Below, one piece after another: positions 14,991 through 41,389 of a stretch of 64,000 bases of DNA (position 1 is the stretch's first letter; each line of letters opens with the position of its first letter). Both the position numbers and the translations under genes were made by a program. A model generated the notes under the pieces. It did not search any database and was not told the DNA's origin. It was given only the letters and a program-made list of their open reading frames with translations. Source of the DNA: an uncultured Acinetobacter sp. (GTDB lineage Bacteria; Pseudomonadota; Gammaproteobacteria; Pseudomonadales; Moraxellaceae); the NCBI RefSeq assembly GCF_947493735.1, contig NZ_CANLSL010000008.1, positions 1 to 64,000 on the forward strand. Direction: 5' to 3'.

Positions 14991-15818
14991 ATGTCAGACA
15001 ATTCAGAATTTCAGCTCAAAAGATTGCCTCGATTTAAACCACGTGGCGGTATTGAGGTAATGTATGCCTCTATTCGTGCGTTATTTTTGCGCGAGTTGCA
15101 AACGCGATTTGGACATTACCGGATTGGGTATGTTTGGGCGTTGCTTGAGCCTGTATTAAGTGTAATTTTTATGCTTATCCTATTTGGAGCGATTGTTAAG
15201 CGAGTTTTGCCAGGTATCGACTATACAGTTTTCTTGATCAATGGAATTTTGCCCTATTATGCATTTATGGGCTCTGTAACGCAGTCTATCCCTGCGATTG
15301 AGGCAAATAGAGGGTTGTTGAGTTATCGCAATGTCAGACCAATAGACACCGTAATTGCTCGAACTAGTTTAGAGTTTGTACTTTATTTTGTTTGCTATCT
15401 CTTGTTATCAGCAGTGATGTTGTGGTTGGGCTTTTCGATTAGTTTTTCTTTTATTCCGACTTTGTTGTTCTATTGGCTATGCCTTATAGGCTTAACATTG
15501 GGTGTGGCAAGTATTATGATGGTGGTTGGAGAGTTAAGCAAAGAAGTTGGAAAATTAGTGAGTTCTGTTTCTATAATTCTTTATTTTATGTCTGGGGCGA
15601 TCATACCGTTACATCAAGTTCCTAGTGAGTATCTAAAGTATTTTATGTGGAATCCTTTGGCGCATGTGTTTGAACTCATGCGACATGCAGTGTCGCCAAG
15701 TTATAGTGTGGTCTCGGGTACGAGCCTTGGCTACTTTTTGGTATGCATGATCGTAGTATTGTTTTTAGGGTTGTTATTAAATCAATCTTTATCAGAGAGG
15801 TTGATGAAAACCAAATGA
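14991..15818 (+). CDS. kpsM: Capsule polysaccharide ABC transporter permease KpsM
   Basis: A 275-residue ABC-2 type permease with about six hydrophobic segments and the family's N-terminal signature FLRELQTRFGHYRIGYVWAL. KpsM proteins form the inner-membrane channel that moves complete, lipid-linked group 2 capsular polysaccharide across the membrane. It overlaps kpsT by ATGA (stop and start share bases), which indicates translational coupling. It opens the capsule locus. Confidence 0.92.
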   Translation: MSDNSEFQLKRLPRFKPRGGIEVMYASIRALFLRELQTRFGHYRIGYVWALLEPVLSVIFMLILFGAIVKRVLPGIDYTVFLINGILPYYAFMGSVTQSIPAIEANRGLLSYRNVRPIDTVIARTSLEFVLYFVCYLLLSAVMLWLGFSISFSFIPTLLFYWLCLIGLTLGVASIMMVVGELSKEVGKLVSSVSIILYFMSGAIIPLHQVPSEYLKYFMWNPLAHVFELMRHAVSPSYSVVSGTSLGYFLVCMIVVLFLGLLLNQSLSERLMKTK

Positions 15819-16483
15819 TTGAGCTTAAAAATATTACCAAATCTTATGCAACGCCAAAAGGTCGTCATTTTGTTTTTAAAAATCTCAATGCAACCTTGCC
15901 TGAAGATAAAAGCGTTGGATTGTTAGGTAAAAATGGTGCAGGTAAAAGCACCTTGTTGCGTATTATTGGGGGGATTGACTTTCCTGACGCAGGACGAGTC
16001 ATTACGAAGAAAACCATATCATGGCCTGTGGCATTGGCGGGTGGGTTTCAGGGGAGTTTAACTGGTCGACAAAATGTACGCTTTGTCGCAAGGTTGTATG
16101 CTTCAGAAAAAGATGTTCGGCAAGTGGTTTCATTCGTTGAAGAGTTTGCCCAACTAGGAAAATATTTTGATATGCCAATCAAAAGCTATTCTTCAGGGAT
16201 GCGATCTCGGTTGGGTTTTGGTTTGAGTATGGCATTTGATTTTGATTATTATTTGCTTGATGAGGTGGGTGCGGTCGGTGACGCTGTATTTCGTAAGCGG
16301 AGCCAAGCATTGTTGGATGATTTGAAGAAAAATTCGAATATTATTATGGTTTCACATGATCTCAATGATTTGATACGTAACTGTGATGTGGGCTTTGTTG
16401 TGCAGGATGGTCAGGCACAATATTTTGAAGATATTAATGAAGCGGTAGAGGTTTATAAAGAATATGCGCTGGGTAAACAATAA
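15815..16483 (+). CDS. kpsT: Capsule polysaccharide ABC transporter ATP-binding protein KpsT
   Basis: A 222-residue ATPase that powers capsule export with KpsM. Visible are Walker A (GLLGKNGAGKSTLL), the signature YSSGMRSRL and Walker B (DYYLLDEV), plus a switch histidine in MVSHDLNDL. The tracked ORF starts at 15743, but homologous sequence begins MIELKNITKSY at ATG 15815, which overlaps the kpsM stop by 4 bases. Confidence 0.94.
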   Translation: MIELKNITKSYATPKGRHFVFKNLNATLPEDKSVGLLGKNGAGKSTLLRIIGGIDFPDAGRVITKKTISWPVALAGGFQGSLTGRQNVRFVARLYASEKDVRQVVSFVEEFAQLGKYFDMPIKSYSSGMRSRLGFGLSMAFDFDYYLLDEVGAVGDAVFRKRSQALLDDLKKNSNIIMVSHDLNDLIRNCDVGFVVQDGQAQYFEDINEAVEVYKEYALGKQ

Positions 16484-17573
16484 TCGTTCTGCGCTGCAAG
16501 CGTATCTTCTTATGGTGGTTATTCCGCTGATTGTAATTGTTTTGTACTTGTTGTTTTTTGCTCAGAATCGTTACTTGACGGATGCTACAGTTATCGTTAA
16601 ACAGGTTGGTGAAATTAATACTGATGCTTCGAGTACGGGGCTTGGTGCTTTGCTGGGAGTGAGTAATACCAGTATTGAAGATTCTCAGTATTTGAAGGAG
16701 TTTATTCAATCTCGAGATTTGGTTGAAAAGTTAGATAAAGAGATGGATTTGATGATCGCTTTTCAAGGAACGGGCGGGGATCCTATTTTTGAGCTTTCAC
16801 AAAATGCCTCAAAAGAAGAGTTGGTAGAGTATTATAATAAGCGTGTTAAGGTAAATTTGGATGAACAGACGAACCTACTGCATATTTCCACAGAGGGGTT
16901 TAGTCCTGAATTTTCTTTGAGGCTAAATCAGAAAATTTTAGCTGAAAGCGAAGCGTTTATTAATGATATTTCTCAGGATGTGGCTAAAGATCAGTTGGTT
17001 TTTGCTACAGATCAGCTCAATGAGGCGTTAGAGAATCTAACACAATCTCGAGAAGCTTTGATTAATTATCAAAATAAAAATCAAATGTTTGATCCTTTGG
17101 CGCAAGCTCAAGCAGTAGCTCAAATTGTTGTTCAGCTTGAATCAAATTTAGCACAGCTACGTACAGAAGAGCGAACTTTACTTAGCTATTTAAATCCAAC
17201 TGCACCACAGGTTGTGGCTTTAAAAAGTCAAATCAAATCTGTTGAAAAGCAGATTCAAGATGAAAAGTCGAGACTAACATCACCAAGTAATTCAGATAAG
17301 CTTAACCGAAGTGCAGCGGACTTTGAAGGCTTAAAGGCTCAGGTCGAATTTAATACTGACCTTTATAAATTGGCATTGGGTTCTTTAGAAAAAGCCAGAC
17401 TTGAAGCGGCAAGAAAGCTTAAGAATGTGATCGTTATTACTAGTCCAAGGTTGGCGCAAGATGCACTATATCCAAGAGTTTGGTACATTATCTTTAGTGC
17501 GTTTTTACTTTTAAATTTATTATTTGGCATCGTGATGTTGGTGCGCTCAGTGATTCGTGAGCATAAGGAGTAA
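16464..17573 (+). CDS. kpsE: Capsule export inner-membrane/periplasmic protein KpsE
   Basis: A 369-residue polysaccharide co-polymerase type protein. It has an N-terminal transmembrane helix (residues about 13-33), a periplasmic region with Wzz-like sequence (DSQYLKEFIQSRDLVEKL), a long coiled coil (about 170-300) and a C-terminal helix (YIIFSAFLLLNLLFGIVML). KpsE links the KpsMT transporter to the outer-membrane exporter. The start lies 20 bp inside kpsT, again suggesting coupling. Confidence 0.9.
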   Translation: MRWVNNNRSALQAYLLMVVIPLIVIVLYLLFFAQNRYLTDATVIVKQVGEINTDASSTGLGALLGVSNTSIEDSQYLKEFIQSRDLVEKLDKEMDLMIAFQGTGGDPIFELSQNASKEELVEYYNKRVKVNLDEQTNLLHISTEGFSPEFSLRLNQKILAESEAFINDISQDVAKDQLVFATDQLNEALENLTQSREALINYQNKNQMFDPLAQAQAVAQIVVQLESNLAQLRTEERTLLSYLNPTAPQVVALKSQIKSVEKQIQDEKSRLTSPSNSDKLNRSAADFEGLKAQVEFNTDLYKLALGSLEKARLEAARKLKNVIVITSPRLAQDALYPRVWYIIFSAFLLLNLLFGIVMLVRSVIREHKE

Positions 17574-17578
17574 AGTTG

Positions 17579-19291
17579 ATGAATAAGAAGTTTCTAGCCA
17601 CGGTTTTGGCAAGCCAAATCAGCTTAGTTTATGCGGCGACAGACTCTACGCTATTGCCAAGTGATTACGAAGTTAGCTCTGGACCAAGTGGCTCGGCAAG
17701 CCAAACTGTTGATGCGAGTGCAAATCAAGAACAAGCACAGGCTGCGGCAATGTTGCCGTCGAGCTCGGTGCTTAATCTCGGAAATACAAATACTAAATAC
17801 AATCAAGTTAAGAGTCGGATGTTTGGTGCCCAGCTGTTTAAAGGTGCTTTTGCATCAAGTGCGGGGAGTACCTTTAACAATAGTTATGTGATTAATCCTG
17901 GTGATAATATTAATTTGAGATTATGGGGTGCATATCAATTTGCTGGGAGTCTTACCGTTGATCCTCAAGGTAATATTTTTATTCCAAATGTAGGACCTGT
18001 AAAAGTTTCGGGAACAACCAATGGTAATTTACAAGGTTTAATTGAGCGTAATGTTCGTCGTGTTTATGTGTCTAATGTAGGTGTATATGCGGCACTTGAG
18101 CAAGCGCAACCAGTTAAAGTGTTGGTGACTGGTTTTGTGAATCAGCCGGGTAGCTACGGTGGCGTGGCAAATGATACTGTGCTTGCTTATCTTGATCGTG
18201 CAGGTGGTGTTGATCCACAGCGTGGTAGCTATGTCGATATTCAAATTCAACGTAATGGTCGAATGATTCAGTACGTGAATCTTTATGATTTTTTATTGGC
18301 TGGACAGATTCAACCATTTTCATTTAAAGATGGTGATGTGATTGTGGTTGCTCCGCGCAAACATACATTTAGCGTCAGTGGAGAAGTGTTTAACTCTTTT
18401 GATTTTGAGTTTAATGTTGATCAACTTACTGTTGCCCAAGCGCTATCGGTAGCAAAGCCAAAGCCGGGTGCAACACATGTGGGCATTAGCCGTCGTCAGG
18501 GTGCAGAATACAGAAGTGAATATTATGCGATTGCCGATGCACAAAATGTGGTGCTACAAGATGGCGATGTACTTAGTGTGACTGCAGACCGTTATGCCGG
18601 TACGATTCAAGTACGTATTGAGGGTGCGCATAATGGCACGAGAGCATTGGTATTGCCATATGGTGCGAAGTTGTCTGAAGTACTTCAACAGTTACAGCCG
18701 AACCAACTCTCTCAGGTGCAAAACTTGCAGTTGTTTAGACCGAGTGTCGCAAAGCGTCAAAAAGAAATGTTGAATGTTGCTTTAGATAAGCTAGAGGAAG
18801 CTACCTATTCTGTGCGTTCGGCAACTAAAGAGGAAGCATCGCTACGCTTGCAAGATGCACAATTAGTGAAGCAGTTTGTTGAAAAGGCAAGACAAGTTGA
18901 GCCTAAGGGTCAAGTTGTATTAAATCCAGAATCTTTCTCTAATGTGATTTTGGAGCAAGGTGATGTGTTAAATATTCCTGAGAAAACCTCTGTCATTATG
19001 GTGCATGGTGAAGTGATGTTCCCAAATGCTGTGGAGTGGCAAAAGGGCATGTCTGCACGAGATTATATTGATCAAGTGGGCGGGTTTACTCAAAAGTCAA
19101 ATAAATCCAAAGTCATCATCGTTCATCAAAATGGCGAATCTGAGTTAGTAAAGTCAAGCTATCAGTTGGTTCAAGGCGATGAGATTATGGTTCTACCTAA
19201 AGTATCATCAAAAGGCGTCGAAGTTGCTAGAGGTTTGACAACTATTCTCTATCAAATTGCGATTGCAGCGAAAGTGGCTTTGGATATTTGA
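17579..19291 (+). CDS. kpsD: Polysaccharide export protein KpsD (OPX family)
   Basis: A 570-residue OPX/Wza-type protein with a signal peptide (MNKKFLATVLASQISLVYA), the polysaccharide export domain (NPGDNINLRLWGAYQFAG..VDPQGNIFIPNVGPV) and several SLBB-like domains (VTGFVNQPGSYGGVANDTV; VHGEVMFPNAVEWQKG). It carries group 2 capsule through the periplasm and outer membrane. The track starts at TTG 17576, but ATG 17579, with aaggag 8 bases upstream, is the better start. Last gene of kpsMTED, followed by a terminator. Confidence 0.92.
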   Translation: MNKKFLATVLASQISLVYAATDSTLLPSDYEVSSGPSGSASQTVDASANQEQAQAAAMLPSSSVLNLGNTNTKYNQVKSRMFGAQLFKGAFASSAGSTFNNSYVINPGDNINLRLWGAYQFAGSLTVDPQGNIFIPNVGPVKVSGTTNGNLQGLIERNVRRVYVSNVGVYAALEQAQPVKVLVTGFVNQPGSYGGVANDTVLAYLDRAGGVDPQRGSYVDIQIQRNGRMIQYVNLYDFLLAGQIQPFSFKDGDVIVVAPRKHTFSVSGEVFNSFDFEFNVDQLTVAQALSVAKPKPGATHVGISRRQGAEYRSEYYAIADAQNVVLQDGDVLSVTADRYAGTIQVRIEGAHNGTRALVLPYGAKLSEVLQQLQPNQLSQVQNLQLFRPSVAKRQKEMLNVALDKLEEATYSVRSATKEEASLRLQDAQLVKQFVEKARQVEPKGQVVLNPESFSNVILEQGDVLNIPEKTSVIMVHGEVMFPNAVEWQKGMSARDYIDQVGGFTQKSNKSKVIIVHQNGESELVKSSYQLVQGDEIMVLPKVSSKGVEVARGLTTILYQIAIAAKVALDI

Positions 19292-22210: not shown

Positions 22211-23380
22211 TTATGAATCTTTACTAAATAAATCACGAGTATAGATCTTTTCTAAGCAGTCTGATAGTTCTGGAGCAAGTCGATTGGCAACAATCACATC
22301 GGATTGTAGTTTAAATTGCTCGATATCTTGAATGACTGGAAGTTTGTTAAAATATGCTTCATTTAATGATGGTTCATAGATGATGAGTTCTATGCCTTCA
22401 CTTTGCAGTCTTTTCATCACTGCTTGTATAGAAGAAGCTCTGAAATTATCAGAACCTTGTTTCATGATTAAGCGGTAGATACCGACGACTTGAGGTTTTT
22501 TCTCGATGATTGAGTCTGCAATAAACTCAATGCGTGTAGTATTCGAGTGAACAATCGCCTGAATTAAGTTTTGCGGGACGTCTTTGTAATTTGCGAGCAA
22601 TTGCTTGGTATCTTTCGGTAAGCAATATCCACCATAACCAAATGACGGGTTATTGTAATGATTTCCAATTCGAGGGTCTAAGCTCACACCTTGAATAATT
22701 TCAGCGGTGTTTAAGTTGTGAATTGAAGCATAGGTATCTAGTTCGTTAAAATATGCGACACGCATTGCTAAATAAGTATTGGCAAAGAGCTTTATTGCTT
22801 CTGCTTCAGTACTTTGTGTAAACAGGATGGGGATATCTTTTTTAATTGCACCATTTACCAAAAGGTGAGCAAAATTTTGTGCACGCTCAGATTGTTCACC
22901 TACAATGATACGTGATGGATACAAATTATCATATAGCGCAAATCCTTCTCGTAAAAATTCTGGTGAAAATATAATATTGTCGGTGTTAAATTTTTCTCTA
23001 ACTTGTTTTGTGTAGCCTACAGGAATGGTTGATTTAATGACGATCAATGCTTTTTGATTGCATTCTAGTATCTTCTCAATGACACTTTCCACACTTGATG
23101 TGTCAAAATGATGCGTGATTTCATCATAATTTGTTGGTGTAGCAATGATGACAATATCTGCGGTTTGATAGTGTATTGTATCTGTACTGGCTTGAAGGTT
23201 CAACGCGTTATTTGATAAATAGTATTGAATTTCTTTATCTTCAATGGGAGATTGCTTATTATTGATTTGCTTAACTTTGTTTGGGTCAAGATCAATTGCA
23301 ATCACATTATTATGCTGAGCTAAAAGTACGGCATTAGATAACCCAACATAACCTGTGCCTGCAACAACTATGTTTTTCAT
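22211..23380 (-). CDS. ugd: UDP-glucose 6-dehydrogenase (catalytic cysteine present)
   Basis: A 389-residue nucleotide-sugar dehydrogenase of the short type. It has an intact NAD-binding motif ([16 protein letters not shown]), the conserved KSTIPVGYT segment, the substrate-site lysine in [16 protein letters not shown] and the catalytic cysteine in [10 protein letters not shown] (Cys253). It converts UDP-glucose to UDP-glucuronate, a common capsule precursor. It is first in the minus-strand ugd-GT-manB operon. A second, degenerate dehydrogenase lies beside galU in the same locus, so this is probably the working copy. Confidence 0.88.
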
Positions 23381-30222: not shown

Positions 30223-31275
30223 AGTGCGACACGCCCCCACCCATTAAAGGGAAAAGGAGAAATACCGTGTCGTATACTCAACTTAGCTTCGAAGATCGTA
30301 CAGCACTCATGCTAGAATCCCGCAAAGCTGATTTTTCACCGAGAACATTTGCTCAACAAATCAATCGGCATCATAGTACGATATATCGTGAATTAAGTCG
30401 AAATACAGTCAATGAATTATACCAAGCACAAACTGCATTAGATCAATCAATGAGTCGGCGACGACGTGGGCATAGAAAGCTGAAACTTGATTCACTGCTA
30501 TGGAAGTTTATCGTTGAAGCCATACGTTGTTTATGGTCTCCTGAGTAAATATCGAAACGATTAAAACAAGTTAATGGATTAGACCATACGATGAATATTA
30601 GCCACACCAGCATTTATTCAACCATCCGAGCCTTACCTAAAGGTGAGTTGAAAAAGGATTTACTGTCATGCTTAAGGCATGAGAATAAGAAACGAAAAGC
30701 CAAAGGGGTATCTAAAAAAGATTCAATATTACAAGATATTAAGACGATACACGATCGTCCTAAAGAGGTTGAAGAGCGAAAAATACCTGGGCATTGGGAA
30801 GCAGATTTAATCAAAGGTAAAGACAATAAAAGTGCGGTTGCAACGCTTATTGAACGCAATACACGATTATGTGTTCTTGCCGTGCTACCTGACGCTAAAG
30901 CAGAATCAGTACGCTTGGCATTAACAGAAGCCATGGCGTACTTACCCACAGAACTTAGAAAAACCTTGACCTATGATCGTGGTCGAGAAATGGCTGAATA
31001 TAAGGTTTTAGAACGAGATTTAGGAATAGAGGTGTATTTTTGTGACCCACATTCACCATGGCAACGTGGGACAAATGAAAACATGAATGGGTTAATTAGA
31101 CAATATTTGCCTAAAGGAGTTGACTTGACCCCAGCGACTCAAGAATACTTAAACAAAATTGCGATGTCTTTGAATTGCAGACCAAGAAAAGCTTTAAATT
31201 GGCAAACGCCATTGGAGGCTTTTGCTCAACTGGTTGATTATCATAGTGCTTTTAAATCTGTCGCACCTCATGTTT
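30215..31275 (+). mobile_element. IS30-family insertion sequence
   Basis: Terminal inverted repeats aaacttgaagtgcgaca (30215-30231) and tgtcgcacctcatgttt (31259-31275) match at 15 of 17 positions, and an IS30-type transposase fills the interior. The length, about 1.06 kb, is right for the family. The exact ends may be a few bases further out. No matching 2-3 base target duplication is visible on the flanks. It separates the GT4 gene from manC and has broken the gene between. Confidence 0.85.
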
Positions 31276-31277
31276 GA
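30267..31277 (+). pseudogene. IS30-family transposase with an in-frame stop codon
   Basis: GTG 30267 with aaaggaga upstream starts SYTQLSFEDRTALML, the IS30 N-terminus, with its helix-turn-helix (RTFAQQINRHHSTIYRELSRN). At 30546 a TAA follows WSPE where the family normally continues with Gln, and the same frame resumes immediately (ISKRLKQVNG...). The catalytic half (GHWEADLIKGKDNKS, TYDRGREMAEY, CDPHSPWQRGTNENMNG: DDE residues present) is intact. A single CAA-to-TAA change therefore probably inactivated it, unless the stop is read through. Confidence 0.85.
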
Positions 31278-33070: not shown

Positions 33071-33940
33071 GTGAATGTAAAAAAAGCTATTCTACCTGTT
33101 GCGGGGTTTGGTACACGGTTATTACCAGCAAGCAAGTCTATTCCTAAAGAAATGATTACAGTAGTTGATCGTCCAGCAATTGATTATGTTGTGCAGGAAG
33201 CGATTGAGGCGGGTATTGATACGATCATCTTGGTGAATCATCCTGCAAAACAAGCTATTGAAAATTATTTTGATCGTAATGCGGAGCTTGAGAATCTTTT
33301 AGAGAAAAAGAAAAAAACCAAAATCTTAGATGAGATTCGAGCAATTGTGCCTGATCACGTGACTGTGGTTGCTGTACGTCAGCCTGAGCCACTTGGCCTG
33401 GGGCATGCAGTACTCTGTGCGGAAAAAGTGATTGGTAATGAACCTTTTGCAGTATTACTTCCAGATGTATTGGTCGACTCTGCTGATCAGAATAATTTGG
33501 CGCAAATGATTGCGCAATTTGAGCAAAATCAAGCGTCACAAATCATGGTGGAAGACGTTGCGCCTGAACGTGTTGATCAATATGGTATTGTTAAACTCGA
33601 GAAGCAAGGTGAGAAAAACACCACCAATATTTTGGGCTTGGTTGAAAAGCCTTCGGTGGGTGAGGCGCCATCGACTTTGGCAGTGGTGGGGCGTTATGTG
33701 TTTACACCTGAAATCTTTAAATACTTAAAAGAGACGCAGGCGGATAAGTCTGGTGAAATCCAGTTAACCGATGCCATGGCAAAATTGTTAGATGTTCAAA
33801 ACATCCAAGCATTCACCTTGCATGGACAAACTTATGATTGTGGGAGTAAGATTGGTTATTTAAAAGCGATCTTGCATTATGCAACACAGCGTGATGAACT
33901 CAAGGATGAGCTACTAGAATTTATTAAAACATTAAATTAA
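33071..33940 (+). CDS. galU: UTP-glucose-1-phosphate uridylyltransferase
   Basis: A 289-residue enzyme making UDP-glucose from UTP and glucose-1-P. Landmarks are KAILPVAGFGTRLLPASKSIPKEM at the nucleotide-binding N-terminus, VRQPEPLGLGHAVLCAE, LPDVLVD and the GLVEKP motif. It starts with GTG and has aagg upstream. UDP-glucose feeds Ugd (UDP-glucuronate) and GalE (UDP-galactose). It begins the galU-ugd-pgi-galE module characteristic of Acinetobacter capsule loci. Confidence 0.96.
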   Translation: MNVKKAILPVAGFGTRLLPASKSIPKEMITVVDRPAIDYVVQEAIEAGIDTIILVNHPAKQAIENYFDRNAELENLLEKKKKTKILDEIRAIVPDHVTVVAVRQPEPLGLGHAVLCAEKVIGNEPFAVLLPDVLVDSADQNNLAQMIAQFEQNQASQIMVEDVAPERVDQYGIVKLEKQGEKNTTNILGLVEKPSVGEAPSTLAVVGRYVFTPEIFKYLKETQADKSGEIQLTDAMAKLLDVQNIQAFTLHGQTYDCGSKIGYLKAILHYATQRDELKDELLEFIKTLN

Positions 33941-33953
33941 GTTGGTTTAGGTT

Positions 33954-35207
33954 ATGTATATCAGGGTTTTAGGCGCATCAGTAAATGCAGCTGTGATGGC
34001 ATATCGTATGTCCTTAATCGGCCATCATGTCAATTGGCAAACATTGGATAAAGACTTGTCCAATCGGTTGAAACAATCAGAAATGATTTTTGATGATTGT
34101 GAGTTGAGTTGTAGTTTGCGAGAACAGATGAGCCTTAACCTATTGAACGTCGATGAGCCGTGTACAGAATACACCTATACTGTGTGTATTCTTGCGATAA
34201 ATAACGAGCAATATTTGGCCTTTGATTTGTTGCGAGAAAATTTTTCTCGGTATAAATATAAATTAGTGATTAATTATGCCAACTTAGGCATGGGGAAAAC
34301 TCGTGAGTTACAACAAGAACTTGCGATTAAGAATATCGTTTATATTCCTGATGCGATACAAGAGGGGCGTTTGCTGACAAGTTTCTTGGATAGTGGGCTG
34401 ATTGTTGGCAATGAAAACCCTGAGAATGAAGTCATTATTCGTGAAATGTTTCGACCGATTTATCCTCTGAGCCAACAATATAACTTTCTCAGCATTCAAG
34501 CGGCAGAGTTTACTAAATTATCTGTATCAGGATTCTTGGCGGCAAAAGTCAGTTTTATGAATGACTTATCTAATGTTGCGGAATCACTTGGGATCGATAT
34601 TGAAGAAGTGCGAGTCGCAATGTCGATGGATGAACGTGTAGGTGCGCATTATTTGTATCCAGGCTGTGGCTTTGGTGGGAGTAATTTTACCCGTGATATT
34701 TTAAAGCTCAAAGAAGTGGTGCTGGAAACAGGAAATGTCAGTGGCTTGCTGGATAAGATTTGGGATATTAATGAAAATCAAAAAGAAATCATTTTCCGTA
34801 AAATATGGAAATTGTTTGATTGTCATTTAGAGAATAAGGTTATCGCCTTTTGGGGTGCATCATTTAAACCCAATAGTAAAAGCGTTGCGCAGTCGCCAAT
34901 TTTAAAAGTGTTGGAGGCATGTTGGTCGCAAGGAGCAATTACCCAAGTACACGATCCACGGGCATTATCGGAGTTGCAGGCGCTTTATCCAGATCAGCAT
35001 TTATTAAAATTGTATGATGATCAATATGATGCAGTCGATGGTGCGGATGTCTTATGTTTGGTGACAGAGTGGAAGCAATACTGGAGCCCTGATTACCAGA
35101 AGTTAATTAAAAAAATGCGCCATCCAAATCTCATTGATGGTCGTAATATTTATAATCCTTTATATGTTGAAAACCAAGGGTTTAATTATATTGGTATTGG
35201 ACGCTGA
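33954..35207 (+). CDS. UDP-glucose dehydrogenase-like protein lacking the catalytic cysteine
   Basis: A 417-residue homologue of UDP-glucose/GDP-mannose dehydrogenases. The middle and C-terminal domains align well (EFTKLSVSGFLAAKVSFMND, MSMDERVGAHYLYPGCGFGG, then VIAFWGASFKPNSKS). However, the active-site motif GGSCFPKD reads GGSNFTRD, so the cysteine is Asn244 (AAT at 34683), and the N-terminal NAD motif GxGxxG is degraded to VLGASVNAAVMA. Without the cysteine the family's two-step oxidation should fail. The frame is intact, so it may be a regulatory or structural pseudoenzyme, or a recent loss covered by the intact ugd at 22211. Confidence 0.8.
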   Translation: MYIRVLGASVNAAVMAYRMSLIGHHVNWQTLDKDLSNRLKQSEMIFDDCELSCSLREQMSLNLLNVDEPCTEYTYTVCILAINNEQYLAFDLLRENFSRYKYKLVINYANLGMGKTRELQQELAIKNIVYIPDAIQEGRLLTSFLDSGLIVGNENPENEVIIREMFRPIYPLSQQYNFLSIQAAEFTKLSVSGFLAAKVSFMNDLSNVAESLGIDIEEVRVAMSMDERVGAHYLYPGCGFGGSNFTRDILKLKEVVLETGNVSGLLDKIWDINENQKEIIFRKIWKLFDCHLENKVIAFWGASFKPNSKSVAQSPILKVLEACWSQGAITQVHDPRALSELQALYPDQHLLKLYDDQYDAVDGADVLCLVTEWKQYWSPDYQKLIKKMRHPNLIDGRNIYNPLYVENQGFNYIGIGR

Positions 35208-35219
35208 GAGGATTGAACT

Positions 35220-36857
35220 ATGTCACCACTTATGATGAAAGTGCTTGATCAGCTTGCAGAGCAATTTAAAAATACGCATATTACCGAGTTGTTTGAACGG
35301 GATGTGAGTCGATTCCAGTCGATGCATATTAAAAGTAATGGGATTTTATTTGATTTTAGTAAGCAGCGTATGGATGCAAGTGTGCTTGATGCGCTGATTC
35401 AACTTGCCGATGAAAAACAACTTTTCGAATGGATTCAAAAACTATTTTCGACAGCATGTATTAATCATACCGAACAGCGCAGTGCAATGCACTGGGCGCT
35501 ACGAATGCCGAAACTGCAAGATGAATCTGATGTTAATTTTCAGGTGAATCAACAGGTTCATCTGCAACTTGAAAAAATGCAAGAGTTGGTTGATAAGATT
35601 CATTCTGGGCAATTCCGTGGTGCGACAGGTGAAAAAATTACTGATGTCGTCAATATCGGAGTCGGTGGGTCAGATCTTGGACCGTTGATGGTGTGTAATG
35701 CGTTGGCATCACATCGTTCTGATCCTGATGTTCGAGTGCGTTTTGCTTCGACTATGGATGGTAGCCAGCTGAGCCAGATTCTGCAAAAGCTTCGTCCAGC
35801 ATCGACATTGTTTATTATTTCCTCAAAATCATTTACCACCATTGATACCTTGTCAAATGCACAAACTGCAAAACAATGGCTGATGCAGTCTTTAGGTCAA
35901 AGTGCCTCTGTATTGAATTGCCATTTTATTGGTGTCTCTACACGAAGCGACAAAATGACCGAGTGGGGAATTGCACCAAATTTACAGCTTAATCTTTGGG
36001 ATTGGGTGGGTGGTCGTTATTCGTTGTGGTCAGCAATTGGTTTGCCGATAGCGATTACCTTTGGTATGGATGCGTTTAACGAGTTGCTTCGTGGTGCGTA
36101 TGATATGGATCAGCACTTCAAAACCATGCCGTGGCAAAGTAATATTCCAGTATTGTTGGCATTGATTGGGATTTGGAATACCAATTACTTGGATATTCAG
36201 ACCCATGCGATTTTGCCTTATGATGGGCGGTTGGAATATTTGACATCTTATTTGCAACAACTTGAAATGGAGTCAAATGGAAAGTCGATTCGTCGTAATA
36301 ATCAAGATGAAGTGGACTATAGTACCTGCCCGATTATTTGGGGAGAAGTGGGACCAAATGCACAGCATGCTTTTTATCAGTTGCTCCATCAAGGCACCAT
36401 CACGGTATCAACCGATTTTGTCATTACTAAGCATCGCAAGTATTATCATCAATCGATTGCGAAACAAGAATCGCACTATGAGGCTTTGCAACAACAACAC
36501 CAATTGGCGATTGCGAACTGTCTTGCGCAGTCACGTTTGCTTGCATTTGGTAATCAAGCAGTACAAACTCAAGATGGCGAAGAAGTGCCTAAATATCGTC
36601 AATATCATGGCAATAAACCAAGTTCAACCATTATTCTTCAACAGCTTAGCCCATATTATTTAGGGCAATTAATTGCTATGTACGAACATAAAGTCTTTGT
36701 GCAGTCGGTAATTTGGGATATTAACCCTTTCGATCAGTGGGGGGTTGAAATGGGTAAAGCCATTGCCAAAGAGATTTTGCCTTATCTTGCTGAAAATCAA
36801 ATTGACCATCACATTGATGCATCAACGCAAGGCTTACTACGAGAATTTTTAAGTTAA
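35220..36857 (+). CDS. pgi: Glucose-6-phosphate isomerase
   Basis: A 545-residue phosphoglucose isomerase interconverting glucose-6-P and fructose-6-P, which links central metabolism to sugar-nucleotide synthesis (mannose through fructose-6-P, glucose through glucose-6-P). Landmarks are [14 protein letters not shown], the phosphate-binding [14 protein letters not shown], the signature [18 protein letters not shown] and the C-terminal [13 protein letters not shown]. It lies 12 bp after the ugd-like gene with gagagg as ribosome binding site. Confidence 0.97.
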
Positions 36858-36869
36858 TTTGAGGTTTTT

Positions 36870-37892
36870 ATGATTTTAGTGGCTGGAGGTGCTGGATATA
36901 TTGGCTCACATACTTGTGTTGAATTAATCAAACACGGCTATGAGATCCTTGTGCTTGATAATTTTTCGAATAGCTCACCAAAAGTTTTTGATCGTTTAAA
37001 GAAAATTACTGGTCAAGATATTCCTTATGTTGATGTGGATATTCGGGATGAAGTCGGTCTTGAGACAGTATTTTCTAAATATAATATTCAGGCTGTGATT
37101 CATTTTGCAGGTCTCAAAGCGGTCGGCGAAAGTATGCTGAATCCTTTGGCTTATTTTGAAAATAACATTTCAGGCACATCGACTTTGCTCAAAGTGATGA
37201 AAAAGTTTGCTGTAAAGCACATGATTTTTAGTTCTTCAGCAACGGTTTATGGTGAGCTCAATCCAAGCCCTTATCAAGAATCAATGCAGACAGGGATGCC
37301 AACGAATAATTATGGTTATACCAAGCTAGTGATTGAACAAATGCTACAAAAGCTTGCTCAGGCGGAGGATGGATGGTCTATTGCCTTGCTTCGTTATTTT
37401 AATCCGATTGGCGCCCATCCAAGTGGTCTGATTGGTGAGCATCCAAAAGGCATACCAAATAATTTATTGCCATTCTTGACGCAAGTTGCGGTTGGGATTC
37501 GTGAGAAACTCAATATTTTTGGTGGTGATTATGATACCGCCGACGGTACAGCTGTCCGTGATTATTTACATGTTGTTGATTTGGCGGTGGCACATGTGTT
37601 GGCATTGAAAAACCGATTAAATAATACAGGTTGTGATGTTTGGAATGTTGGGACAGGGAATGGCTACTCTGTTTTGGCGATTACAAACACCTTTGAGCAA
37701 GTCAACCAGTTGCAAGTACCATATGAAATTGTTGAGCGCCGAGAAGGTGATTTGGCAAGTTTTTATGCAGACTCATCGAAAATTCAAAATGAATTGGGTT
37801 GGAGTGTACAGTATCAATTGGATGATATGTTGCGACACAGTTGGAATTGGCAAAAAAACAATCCAAATGGTTATGATGTGTTAGAAAGTTAA
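36870..37892 (+). CDS. galE: UDP-glucose 4-epimerase
   Basis: A 340-residue short-chain dehydrogenase family epimerase making UDP-galactose (or UDP-GalNAc) from the gluco form. Visible are VAGGAGYIGSHTCVEL, SSSATVYG with the catalytic Ser, YGYTKLVIEQML with the YxxxK pair and the RYFNPIGAHPSGLIGE substrate loop. It ends the galU-ugd-pgi-galE module and lies 12 bp after pgi. UDP-Glc versus UDP-GlcNAc preference cannot be decided from sequence alone. Confidence 0.93.
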   Translation: MILVAGGAGYIGSHTCVELIKHGYEILVLDNFSNSSPKVFDRLKKITGQDIPYVDVDIRDEVGLETVFSKYNIQAVIHFAGLKAVGESMLNPLAYFENNISGTSTLLKVMKKFAVKHMIFSSSATVYGELNPSPYQESMQTGMPTNNYGYTKLVIEQMLQKLAQAEDGWSIALLRYFNPIGAHPSGLIGEHPKGIPNNLLPFLTQVAVGIREKLNIFGGDYDTADGTAVRDYLHVVDLAVAHVLALKNRLNNTGCDVWNVGTGNGYSVLAITNTFEQVNQLQVPYEIVERREGDLASFYADSSKIQNELGWSVQYQLDDMLRHSWNWQKNNPNGYDVLES

Positions 37893-37949: not shown

Positions 37950-39968
37950 ATGCTTGTTACATCCAAAGGTTTGCTTGCAATAAAGGGTTTGTCGCAACTG
38001 GTCGATGAACCCGTACAACACTTTGCCAACTTTAATAATTCTAAGCATCAATGCGTAGCAGGATGGGGACGGAAAAAAAGCTTTTTCCGTGCGCAGCGTT
38101 ATGCACAAAAACATCATTTGCAATTGGTCTGTTTAGAAGATGGTTTTATTCGTTCAATGGGCTTGGGTAAGGATAATTATCCTCCATTATCGATTGTTTA
38201 TGATAAAACAGGTATTTATTTTGATGCCACACAGACTTCTGACTTGGAAAGCTTAATTAAAAAATTTGAACATGAAGCAGATAACCTGCGAGCAAAAAAA
38301 TTGATAGAAGCCATCATTGATGCGGAAATCAGCAAATATAATTTAAAATTTCAAGAGATAGATCCAAAGCAATTTCAGCCACAAAAAAATATTCTGGTTG
38401 TTGATCAAACGTTTGGGGATCAATCCATCGGCTGTGCAGGTGCAGATCAAACCAGTTTTTATAAAATGCTTGAGATTGCGATCTCTTCTCACCCTAACGC
38501 AAAAATTTGGCTCAAAGTCCATCCTGATGTGGTTGCGGGGAAAGCTAAGGGACATTTTAACCCTATTGATTTGAAAAAATATTCTCAAGTTGAATTATTT
38601 GCAGATTATGTCAATCCCATTGCACTCATAAAGCAAATGGATGAGGTGTATGTGGTGAGTTCGCAAATGGGCTTTGAGGCATTATTGTGTGGCAAAAAAG
38701 TCCATTGTTTCGGCGTACCTTGGTATGCAGGATGGGGGCTCACTGATGATCAGTACGCACCTTTAGACATTTTAAAAGATCGTCGCAAAGTGCAACGCTC
38801 GCTTGCGCATTTATTTAGCTGTGCTTATTTGAAGTATGCACGTTATCTTTCGCCTGTAACAGGTGAGCGTTGTGAGTTTGAAGTGCTTCTTGAATTGATT
38901 AAGGTAAATATTTCAGCGCAAAAACAACTTCCCGATCAGTTGGTTGCTTACGGGTTTTCACGGTGGAAAAAACGCTTCTTGCCACAATATTTGCAGTTTT
39001 CTCATGTGCAACTATCATTTAATACATGGACCAAGCCGAAGTCAAATAAATACGTGGTTGCATGGGGTAAAAAAGCACGCATACTCAAGGATCAAGATTT
39101 TAAACATGTGACGACGGTTGAAGATGGTTTTGTTCGCTCAAGTGGTTTAGGTGCAAATCTGATTCGACCGTACTCTTTGGTTTTTGATGATGTGGGGATT
39201 TATTATGATGCGACCCGACCGTCTCGATTAGAGCAACTGCTTAATGATATTGAGCTTGATCAGCATCAAGTCGAGCGCGCCAAGAAGCTTATTGAGCAAC
39301 TCAACCGACTATCAATCAGTAAATATAATATTGGCGAACGAAAAGAATTACTACGTCCACAGCATGAACGTGTGTTACTTGTGACTGGGCAAGTTGAAGA
39401 TGATGAATCAATTCGCTTAGGTAGTTTGCAAATCAAAACCAACTTGGCACTGCTAAAACATGTTCGTGAACAGCATCCTGATGCTTATATTATTTACAAG
39501 CCACACCCAGACGTTCATGCAGGGTTGCGACTTGGAAAAATCCAAGATGCCGATCTCGAACGGTATGCTGATGCAGTCGAGCTAGATGCATCGATTGTGG
39601 AGTGTTTTGGGATCATTGATGAGCTACACACCATCACATCATTGAGTGGTTTTGAAGCCTTACTTCGAGGGAAACAGGTGTATTGCTATGGCATGCCATT
39701 TTATGCGGGCTGGGGGCTGACAATAGATACTGAACAAATTCAACGTCGCCAACGTCGTCTAAATCTTTTCGAGCTCACCTATGGCGTGTTGGTTGAATAT
39801 GCTACGTACAATTTGCCACAGACTGCGCCGTACAAATTAGCAAGAGTTAACTTGGAGGATGTCATTACACAAGTCGTTTCTGAGCGCACTCAAAATATTA
39901 GTTCTCCAAAACTACAGTCGACTTTTGCCAAAATTCGTGCCAAACTTATATATAGTAAATGTTTGTAA
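37950..39968 (+). CDS. kpsC: Capsule polysaccharide beta-Kdo transferase KpsC
   Basis: A 672-residue protein with two tandem homologous transferase modules: AGWGRKKSFFRAQRYA...LEDGFIRSMGLG in the N-terminal half and VAWGKKARILKD...VEDGFVRSSGLG in the C-terminal half. Each is followed by a YDATxxSxLE stretch and ends in a FYAGWGL-type motif. KpsC alternately adds beta-linked Kdo residues to build the linker on phosphatidylglycerol that anchors group 2 capsules. Together with KpsS it shows that this locus makes an ABC-transporter-dependent capsule. The order and length are normal. Confidence 0.94.
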   Translation: MLVTSKGLLAIKGLSQLVDEPVQHFANFNNSKHQCVAGWGRKKSFFRAQRYAQKHHLQLVCLEDGFIRSMGLGKDNYPPLSIVYDKTGIYFDATQTSDLESLIKKFEHEADNLRAKKLIEAIIDAEISKYNLKFQEIDPKQFQPQKNILVVDQTFGDQSIGCAGADQTSFYKMLEIAISSHPNAKIWLKVHPDVVAGKAKGHFNPIDLKKYSQVELFADYVNPIALIKQMDEVYVVSSQMGFEALLCGKKVHCFGVPWYAGWGLTDDQYAPLDILKDRRKVQRSLAHLFSCAYLKYARYLSPVTGERCEFEVLLELIKVNISAQKQLPDQLVAYGFSRWKKRFLPQYLQFSHVQLSFNTWTKPKSNKYVVAWGKKARILKDQDFKHVTTVEDGFVRSSGLGANLIRPYSLVFDDVGIYYDATRPSRLEQLLNDIELDQHQVERAKKLIEQLNRLSISKYNIGERKELLRPQHERVLLVTGQVEDDESIRLGSLQIKTNLALLKHVREQHPDAYIIYKPHPDVHAGLRLGKIQDADLERYADAVELDASIVECFGIIDELHTITSLSGFEALLRGKQVYCYGMPFYAGWGLTIDTEQIQRRQRRLNLFELTYGVLVEYATYNLPQTAPYKLARVNLEDVITQVVSERTQNISSPKLQSTFAKIRAKLIYSKCL

Positions 39969-40108
39969 GAATTTGTTTACTGTTTTGCGATTTGAAATCT
40001 TGATAAAAAGTAAGCCATTTTAAATGGTTTTATTTTTAATGAGATGGCTTGAAGAGTCAAACAGCTATCGAGTTTTGATTTCGAAAATTTTCTAAATGAG
40101 GGCTCGGT

Positions 40109-41389
40109 ATGTCGTTACATCTTCATCAGTTGATGAAATCTGAACGCCTCATGATCCTTCAGGGGCCAATGGGAAATTATTTTACACAGTTTTGCCATTG
40201 GTTAGAGCGACATCAAAAATATTATTATAAAGTCAATTTTAATGGTGGGGATTGGTTTTTCTCACGTGGACTAAATAATCTTCACTATCGTGGACAGCTC
40301 GCCGAATTCGAAGATTGGTTAGTGCTGCACATTAAAGATAAGCAAATAGATGCGATGGTATGTTTTGGTGATTGTCGTTTTTATCATCGCATTGCTAAAC
40401 GCGTTTCTGAAGAGTTAAATATTGACTTCTTTGTCTTTGAAGAGGGTTATGTTCGACCAAACTATATTACTTTTGAGCATAATGGCGTCAATGACTTCTC
40501 CGATTTTAAAAAATTTTATGATCGCTCGGATCAAACCATTCCTGATTTACCTCTACCTGATCACCCACAAGAAGTTTATCCAAGTTTTACTTTTTTGATT
40601 CGCTCGGCGGTTTGTTTTTATTTGATGTGGGTGATATGTACTTTTCTCTACCCACATTATCGTCATCACCGAATGATTAGACCTTCTGTTGAGGTGTTTT
40701 ATTGGCTCCGGGCTGGAGTACGCAAGCTGATTAATAAACAAGTGGATTCATATAAGTTTCTAAATTTGATTCAGCATCATACCGACCGTTATTTTACCGT
40801 AGCACTACAAGTACACAACGACTCACAAGTGCAAGTGCATAGTGATTATGTCGATGTGCGTGATTTTATTCACGAAGTGGTGATATCTTTTGCAAAAGAA
40901 GCCGATACGTCTCTGCATCTTGTTTTTAAGCATCATCCAATGGATCGTGGTTATAGACATTATGGCCAATTGTTGCGCGAGTTAGCCAGTGAATATGGTC
41001 TTGATGGGCGAGTGCATTATATGTGTGATGTGCATTTGCCGACATTGATGAAGCACAGTTTGGGGGTGGTTACCATCAATAGCACGACTGGGATTCAGGC
41101 TTTACATCATGGCAAACCAGTAATTGCATTAGGGCGTGCGATTTATAATTTACCGAAGTTAACCTTTCAGGGAAGTCTAGATCAGTTTTGGAAAAACCCA
41201 GGTCGTGTCAATCGTTTACATTACCGTCGCTTCCGCTATGCTTTGGTGCATTATTCACAGCTCAATGGTGCGTATTATGGTCGATCGCCATGGATGCAAG
41301 CCTATGATGAAAAAGGCTTTGATCATCGCTTCAGTCACTTATTAGAGAGCCAAAAGACCAAAGAAAAGTTACGTGTTGTAAAGGATTAA
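40109..41389 (+). CDS. kpsS: Capsule polysaccharide Kdo transferase KpsS
   Basis: A 426-residue KpsS/LipB-like protein. It starts the Kdo linker by adding the first beta-Kdo to lyso-phosphatidylglycerol, and KpsC extends it. The family start ILQGPMGNYFTQFCHWLE, the central FVFEEGYVRPNYIT (glycosyltransferase active-site region) and VFKHHPMDRGYRHY / INSTTGIQALHHGKPV are visible. It is the last capsule gene, separated from kpsC by about 140 bp and followed by a thioesterase 10 bp later. Confidence 0.93.
   Translation: MSLHLHQLMKSERLMILQGPMGNYFTQFCHWLERHQKYYYKVNFNGGDWFFSRGLNNLHYRGQLAEFEDWLVLHIKDKQIDAMVCFGDCRFYHRIAKRVSEELNIDFFVFEEGYVRPNYITFEHNGVNDFSDFKKFYDRSDQTIPDLPLPDHPQEVYPSFTFLIRSAVCFYLMWVICTFLYPHYRHHRMIRPSVEVFYWLRAGVRKLINKQVDSYKFLNLIQHHTDRYFTVALQVHNDSQVQVHSDYVDVRDFIHEVVISFAKEADTSLHLVFKHHPMDRGYRHYGQLLRELASEYGLDGRVHYMCDVHLPTLMKHSLGVVTINSTTGIQALHHGKPVIALGRAIYNLPKLTFQGSLDQFWKNPGRVNRLHYRRFRYALVHYSQLNGAYYGRSPWMQAYDEKGFDHRFSHLLESQKTKEKLRVVKD

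Follow-up and report, generated by a model that had tools for sequence, protein, structure and literature searches.

The gene between galU and gpi in the window (the whole stretch of DNA analysed, 64,000 nucleotides of an uncultured Acinetobacter sp.) encodes a homologue of UDP-glucose dehydrogenase (Ugd) that lacks both the catalytic cysteine and a recognisable NAD-binding motif. Loss of the cysteine is not confined to one strain: it is common to the whole genus and to several other families. We give about an even chance to the reading that this protein, here called pseudo-Ugd or pUgd, is an ancient dead UDP-glucose dehydrogenase that now serves as a sensor or adaptor, binding UDP-glucose or a related UDP-sugar and adjusting the Gpi-Pgm-GalU route. 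In this reading the loss of activity, the binding and the regulatory role in UDP-glucose supply are inferred. The following features of the window are involved.

33954..35207, + strand: pUgd, a protein of the UGDH fold without the catalytic cysteine or the NAD motif; 417 aa, frame open
34674..34697, + strand: former active-site motif GGSNFTRD (canonical GGSCFPKD), residues 241-248
34683-34685, + strand: Asn244 (codon aat) at the position of the catalytic cysteine
33966..34001, + strand: degenerate NAD-binding motif VLGASVNAAVMA (canonical VxGxGYVGLVxG)
34515..34517, + strand: Lys188, corresponding to human K220; invariant in 89/89 pUgd
34635..34637, + strand: Arg228, corresponding to human R260 (glucose contact across the dimer); invariant in 89/89 pUgd
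34866..34868, + strand: Lys305, corresponding to human K339; 88/89 pUgd
35142..35144, + strand: Arg397, corresponding to human R442; invariant in 89/89 pUgd
33071..33940, + strand: galU, UTP-glucose-1-phosphate uridylyltransferase (TIGR01099 above cut-off); 13 bp 5' of pUgd
35220..36857, + strand: gpi, glucose-6-phosphate isomerase (NF001211 above cut-off); 12 bp 3' of pUgd
36870..37892, + strand: galE-like UDP-glucose/galactose epimerase, next in the tight run (assigned by reading the sequence)
22211..23380, - strand: intact UDP-glucose dehydrogenase of the PRK15057 type with GGYCLPKD, a distant paralogue

An earlier note on this DNA had described asparagine in place of the catalytic cysteine, a degraded N-terminal NAD motif and an otherwise well preserved protein with an open frame, and all of this was borne out. 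Asn244 lies in GGSNFTRD, and the N-terminus reads VLGASVNAAV, as against VxGxGYVGLV in true Ugd. In Pfam, the central domain PF00984 and the UDP-binding domain PF03720 were matched (E 8e-24 and 6e-23, respectively) and the NAD domain PF03721 was not found. The NCBIfam nucleotide-sugar-dehydrogenase profile gave 183.2 bits, just under the cut-off of 189.8. The intact ugd that the note had placed in the same locus is indeed present about 10.6 kb away; its product has all three Pfam domains and passes the NCBIfam cut-off. The pUgd gene belongs to a tight run of UDP-glucose genes, galU-pUgd-gpi-galE-like.

The same window contains genes for KpsM-, KpsE- and KpsS-like proteins, an ABC ATPase and a polysaccharide export protein (14991-19291 and 37950-41389, scoring under the curated equivalog cut-offs), and a KpsC-like protein (37950-39968) called solely from its position and repeat architecture. 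The capsule locus is apparently of the ABC-transporter type, whereas the K loci of A. baumannii are of the Wzx/Wzy type. An IS30-family transposase gene (30591-31277) lies between glycosyltransferase genes and a manC-like gene; it is probably truncated at the 5' end, as the match spans profile positions 70-267 of 267.

Relatives of pUgd were found by protein search in 170 of the 176 Acinetobacter genomes, one in each. Five are 60-64% identical to the window protein and the others about 42-50%. When homologues were aligned at residue 244 across Acinetobacter, a check that the earlier note had proposed, all 91 species copies lacked cysteine and had asparagine (89 copies), serine (L004) or histidine (L122). 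The active-site loop GFGGxNFSxD is strongly conserved within the genus. The motif is GGENFSHD in the copy L171 from genome G006, which we take to be A. baumannii on the strength of one match to a diagnostic blaOXA-51 20-mer primer, found in no other genome of the set. Relatives without the cysteine are also present in named records of Alkanindiges, Alcanivorax, Alloalcanivorax and Aidingimonas, in other Moraxellaceae, Alcanivoracaceae, Halomonadaceae and several families of the same order, and in at least two further, outlying gammaproteobacterial families; the names of the families f37, f38 and f44 were assigned via similarity to named records.

None of the 89 non-redundant members has cysteine in column 244, as opposed to all seven true Ugd, which excludes chance. 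The residues observed at this position are N (57), G (12), S (9), H (6), A (2) and T, Y and Q (1 each), with one row gapped. Profile scores are largely bimodal, most members without the cysteine lying above, and Ugd with GGSCFPKD at or below, about 410-420 bits; the diverged forms from Moraxellaceae score lower still. In a quick maximum-likelihood tree with SH-aLRT support only, where true Ugd are represented by seven sequences, all members without the cysteine and the diverged Moraxellaceae forms make up one branch (SH-aLRT 100, length 0.79) apart from true Ugd. Sequences within this branch largely track families. The simplest reading of these sequences is one ancient loss followed by mainly vertical descent, and both the cysteine and the NAD motif would have been lost long ago, in an ancestor common to many bacteria.

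The losses extend beyond the cysteine. Compared with the seven true Ugd, the pUgd family is missing part of the NAD motif (glycines two and three and the YV), the acidic residue that follows strand 2, the VGTPPxEDG loop, the DDMRE motif and, within GGSCFPKD, the Cys, Pro and Lys. The second glycine of the NAD motif is present in 1/89 pUgd, and the position of human Glu161 is occupied by Asp in 79/89. The mean identity in the NAD domain is 31% within the pUgd family versus 56% in true Ugd, and the C-terminal UDP domain is equally conserved in both (55% and 53%, respectively). Pfam detected a weak NAD domain in 57 of the 96 alignment rows, seven of these being true Ugd.

The equivalents of the UDP-sugar ligands are retained, K188, R228 and R397 in all 89 members and K305 in 88. 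Their correspondence to human K220, R260, R442 and K339 was assigned by alignment. The human enzyme uses Arg260 to reach the glucose held in the next subunit, and Lys220 to steady the transition state (PMC3184952). The invariant basic residues of pUgd are consistent with binding of a nucleotide sugar, another suggestion of the earlier note. Another residue, W285, is invariant in pUgd and occurs in none of the true Ugd with which it was compared, and R282 and Q326 are near-invariant in pUgd. The diverged Moraxellaceae forms (L185-L188) have Arg for K188 and Gln or Lys for R397 and retain FRKFW and the gpi neighbourhood; their active-site motifs include GGTTLPAE and GGKSLPSE. They are a second step of divergence, and since they have lost K188 and R397, UDP-sugar binding may not be universal in the family.

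The AlphaFold2 model built from the 96-row alignment has pLDDT 94.4 and pTM 0.88; it was used instead of a model from an 18-sequence alignment, in which the domains were poorly packed. Foldseek matched it to BceC (2y0c) with TM 0.93-0.94. The predicted structure is that of a member of the UGDH fold superfamily, with a Rossmann domain, a central dimerisation helix and a UDP-binding Rossmann domain. As the alignment contained true Ugd, this match is not an independent result and shows no more than that the sequence could adopt the complete fold.

The median dN/dS of pUgd is 0.047 with the range 0.008-0.085 (Nei-Gojobori, 61 non-independent Acinetobacter pairs with unsaturated synonymous change), and the medians for galU and gpi of the same loci are 0.036 and 0.020, respectively. 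The values for the three domains of pUgd are 0.057 (N-terminal), 0.033 and 0.042. In the window's own clade synonymous sites are too diverged for a reliable ratio, save for the pair L002-L003 (0.030/0.637). A ratio near 1, named in the earlier note as the sign of simple decay, is excluded, and this alternative is thus refuted. The gene is under strong purifying selection and has been retained since the ancient loss, so its product most likely has a different function. That pUgd is a slowly decaying pseudogene, open by chance, has a negligible probability: its N-terminal domain diverges faster than the remainder, but even there the ratio is 0.057, and the frames are open in all listed genomes. 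Decay of a single copy was also rejected, given both dN/dS and the cysteine loss common to several families.

The genomic context of pUgd is stable. Both galU and gpi were found within 1.5 kb, on either side of pUgd, in all 31 Acinetobacter loci tested. The order galU-pUgd-gpi was also observed in Alkanindiges and Alcanivoracaceae, galU-pUgd in Aidingimonas-like genomes, and gpi-pUgd in one further family, other Moraxellaceae genera and the two outlying families, so that pUgd adjoins galU and/or gpi in every lineage examined. Moreover, the 170 of 176 Acinetobacter genomes that have pUgd are precisely those that have galU, and the other six have neither. Both genes are absent from the near-complete genomes G002, G029, G074, G102 and G108, which have probably lost the whole precursor module. 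Gene fusions were considered as evidence of partnership and rejected: the long frame in G200 (640 codons) is a GC-rich extension with no evident second domain, and the locus of the candidate fusion with galU in G351 shows no continuous frame. The suggestion of the earlier note that pUgd is a pseudoenzyme, preserved without catalysis, is supported by the low dN/dS, the single ancient clade, the synteny, the predicted fold and the UDP-sugar ligands.

The note had further proposed a regulatory partner of the active Ugd. As a general role this is unsupported, the constant neighbours being galU and gpi. A PRK15057-type Ugd (E below 1e-100) was found in 71 of the 176 Acinetobacter genomes (70 with pUgd and one without it), and a TuaD-like second copy at E <= 1e-20 was found in none of the 176. 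By search with these two query types, about 100 of the 170 pUgd carriers have no recognisable true Ugd, which makes an obligate partnership unlikely; as a general role it was rejected on this ground. A looser version, with pUgd as a regulatory subunit or heteromer partner of true Ugd, could appeal to the intact Ugd in the same locus of the window and to the true Ugd genes found near pUgd in some Alcanivoracaceae. However, carriers without either type of true Ugd and the placement of the intact window copy in a subfamily distant from pUgd in the tree make it very unlikely. The genome from which the window comes has a second intact PRK15057-type Ugd (G000:C15:23013-24161), 60% identical to that of the window. 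The genes named ugd2-ugd5 in A. baumannii are presumably of the PRK15057 type as well.

Published data on A. baumannii capsules agree, indirectly, with an inactive common Ugd. The ugd gene, annotated as UDP-D-Glcp dehydrogenase with the product UDP-D-GlcpA, is listed as constant in 237 K loci, and D-GlcA in the capsule is linked to the additional genes ugd2-ugd5, found in 24 loci (PMC9676051); KL71 uses ugd4 (PMC11619341). A gene present everywhere, with D-GlcA nevertheless tied to ugd2-ugd5, is what one would expect of a common Ugd that does not form UDP-GlcA. In one phage-resistant A. baumannii mutant, described along with mutants in gpi and pgm, an IS interrupts ugd at nt 1137 (PMC10904470); the insertion may be polar on gpi. 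In the transposon fitness papers that we found, ugd is not reported in the main text. Our literature search retrieved no statement of the missing cysteine in the common Ugd and none pairing UDP-glucose dehydrogenase with a pseudoenzyme; an earlier remark on inactivity of Ugd may be present in the 2018 Ugd2 paper (doi 10.1093/glycob/cwy074).

In the reading that we prefer, pUgd would no longer make UDP-glucuronate. Acting as a sensor or adaptor, it would bind a UDP-sugar (UDP-glucose or a related one) and adjust the supply of UDP-glucose by the Gpi-Pgm-GalU route, probably through contact with GalU and/or Gpi via the lineage-specific central helix (E274...F281-R282-K283-x-W285). Synteny with the pathway genes is no proof of contact with the proteins that they encode. 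The main rival is a purely structural role, since the diverged Moraxellaceae forms have lost K188 and R397 and still have FRKFW and gpi as a neighbour. Here pUgd would be an adaptor that holds together enzymes of capsule-precursor synthesis, either GalU and Gpi or others, senses no UDP-sugar and uses its basic residues structurally. The conserved neighbourhood and the family-specific W285, R282 and Q326 would fit such a scaffold; however, retention of the four UDP-sugar ligands in nearly all 89 members goes beyond structural need, and we consider this explanation unlikely, although it is the strongest of the alternatives.

Two other possibilities retain an enzyme. Loss of the cysteine alone may be compatible with residual or changed chemistry, because the human mutant C276A still oxidises the aldehyde intermediate, according to a secondary citation in PMC3184952. 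A changed reaction (lyase, epimerase, isomerase or hydrolase) on a UDP-sugar, with no nucleotide cofactor and proceeding via Lys188 and Asp248, would agree with the invariance of Lys188, the presence of Asp248 in 71/89 members and the strongly conserved loop of Acinetobacter. It is nevertheless improbable: the former cysteine position varies freely by lineage and Asp248 has been lost in 18/89, unlike what is seen in a new catalytic site. Still less credible is a UDP-glucose 6-dehydrogenase with an unusual mechanism. The predicted fold is intact and this is the function annotated in the 237 K loci, but the cysteine, the NAD glycine motif, the acidic residue after strand 2, the NAD loop and DDMRE have all been lost, and K types with D-GlcA are assigned to the additional ugd2-ugd5 (PMC9676051, PMC11619341).

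The name ugd and the UDP-glucuronate role in all A. baumannii K-locus references feed the prediction of capsule structures, metabolic models and lists of drug targets. If pUgd lacks this activity, the UDP-glucuronate assignments are mistaken for a genus of clinical importance, and the capsule-precursor operon contains a constrained protein of another function. If it senses UDP-glucose, the supply of polysaccharide would have a control point built from the pathway's own enzyme. Somewhat more tentatively than for the protein itself, we propose that an unrecognised, widespread family of pseudoenzymes derived from UDP-glucose dehydrogenase senses UDP-glucose and controls the Gpi/GalU flux in gammaproteobacteria including A. 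baumannii, in which each capsule locus has the gene listed as a functional ugd; the chances are rather against this wider claim.

With the long-form Ugd (BceC, TuaD, human UGDH; PF03721-PF00984-PF03720), pUgd shares the three-domain fold (TM 0.94 to BceC 2y0c), the K188/R228/K305/R397 ligands, the DGRN motif and the C-terminus. However, it has no catalytic Cys, GxGYVG, NAD loop or DDMRE, has Asp for Glu161, has W285, R282 and Q326 of its own, and forms a separate clade. The PRK15057-type Ugd belongs to the same superfamily and differs in having GGYCLPKD and an intact NAD domain, in being a distant subfamily, and in occurring in only 71 of the 176 Acinetobacter genomes.

Two precedents concern the proposed role. 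GalF, the enterobacterial paralogue of GalU (NCBIfam TIGR01105), is described as a regulator of GalU. It is a precedent for a pathway-enzyme paralogue with little activity of its own that is encoded in a polysaccharide locus and acts on GalU. GalF descends from GalU itself and pUgd from the enzyme one step further along the pathway, and the two are not homologous. UgtP of B. subtilis and OpgH of E. coli are active, moonlighting glycosyltransferases that sense UDP-glucose. The likeness to the proposed role of pUgd is that a protein of UDP-glucose metabolism serves as the UDP-glucose sensor; both differ in being active glycosyltransferases of an unrelated fold.
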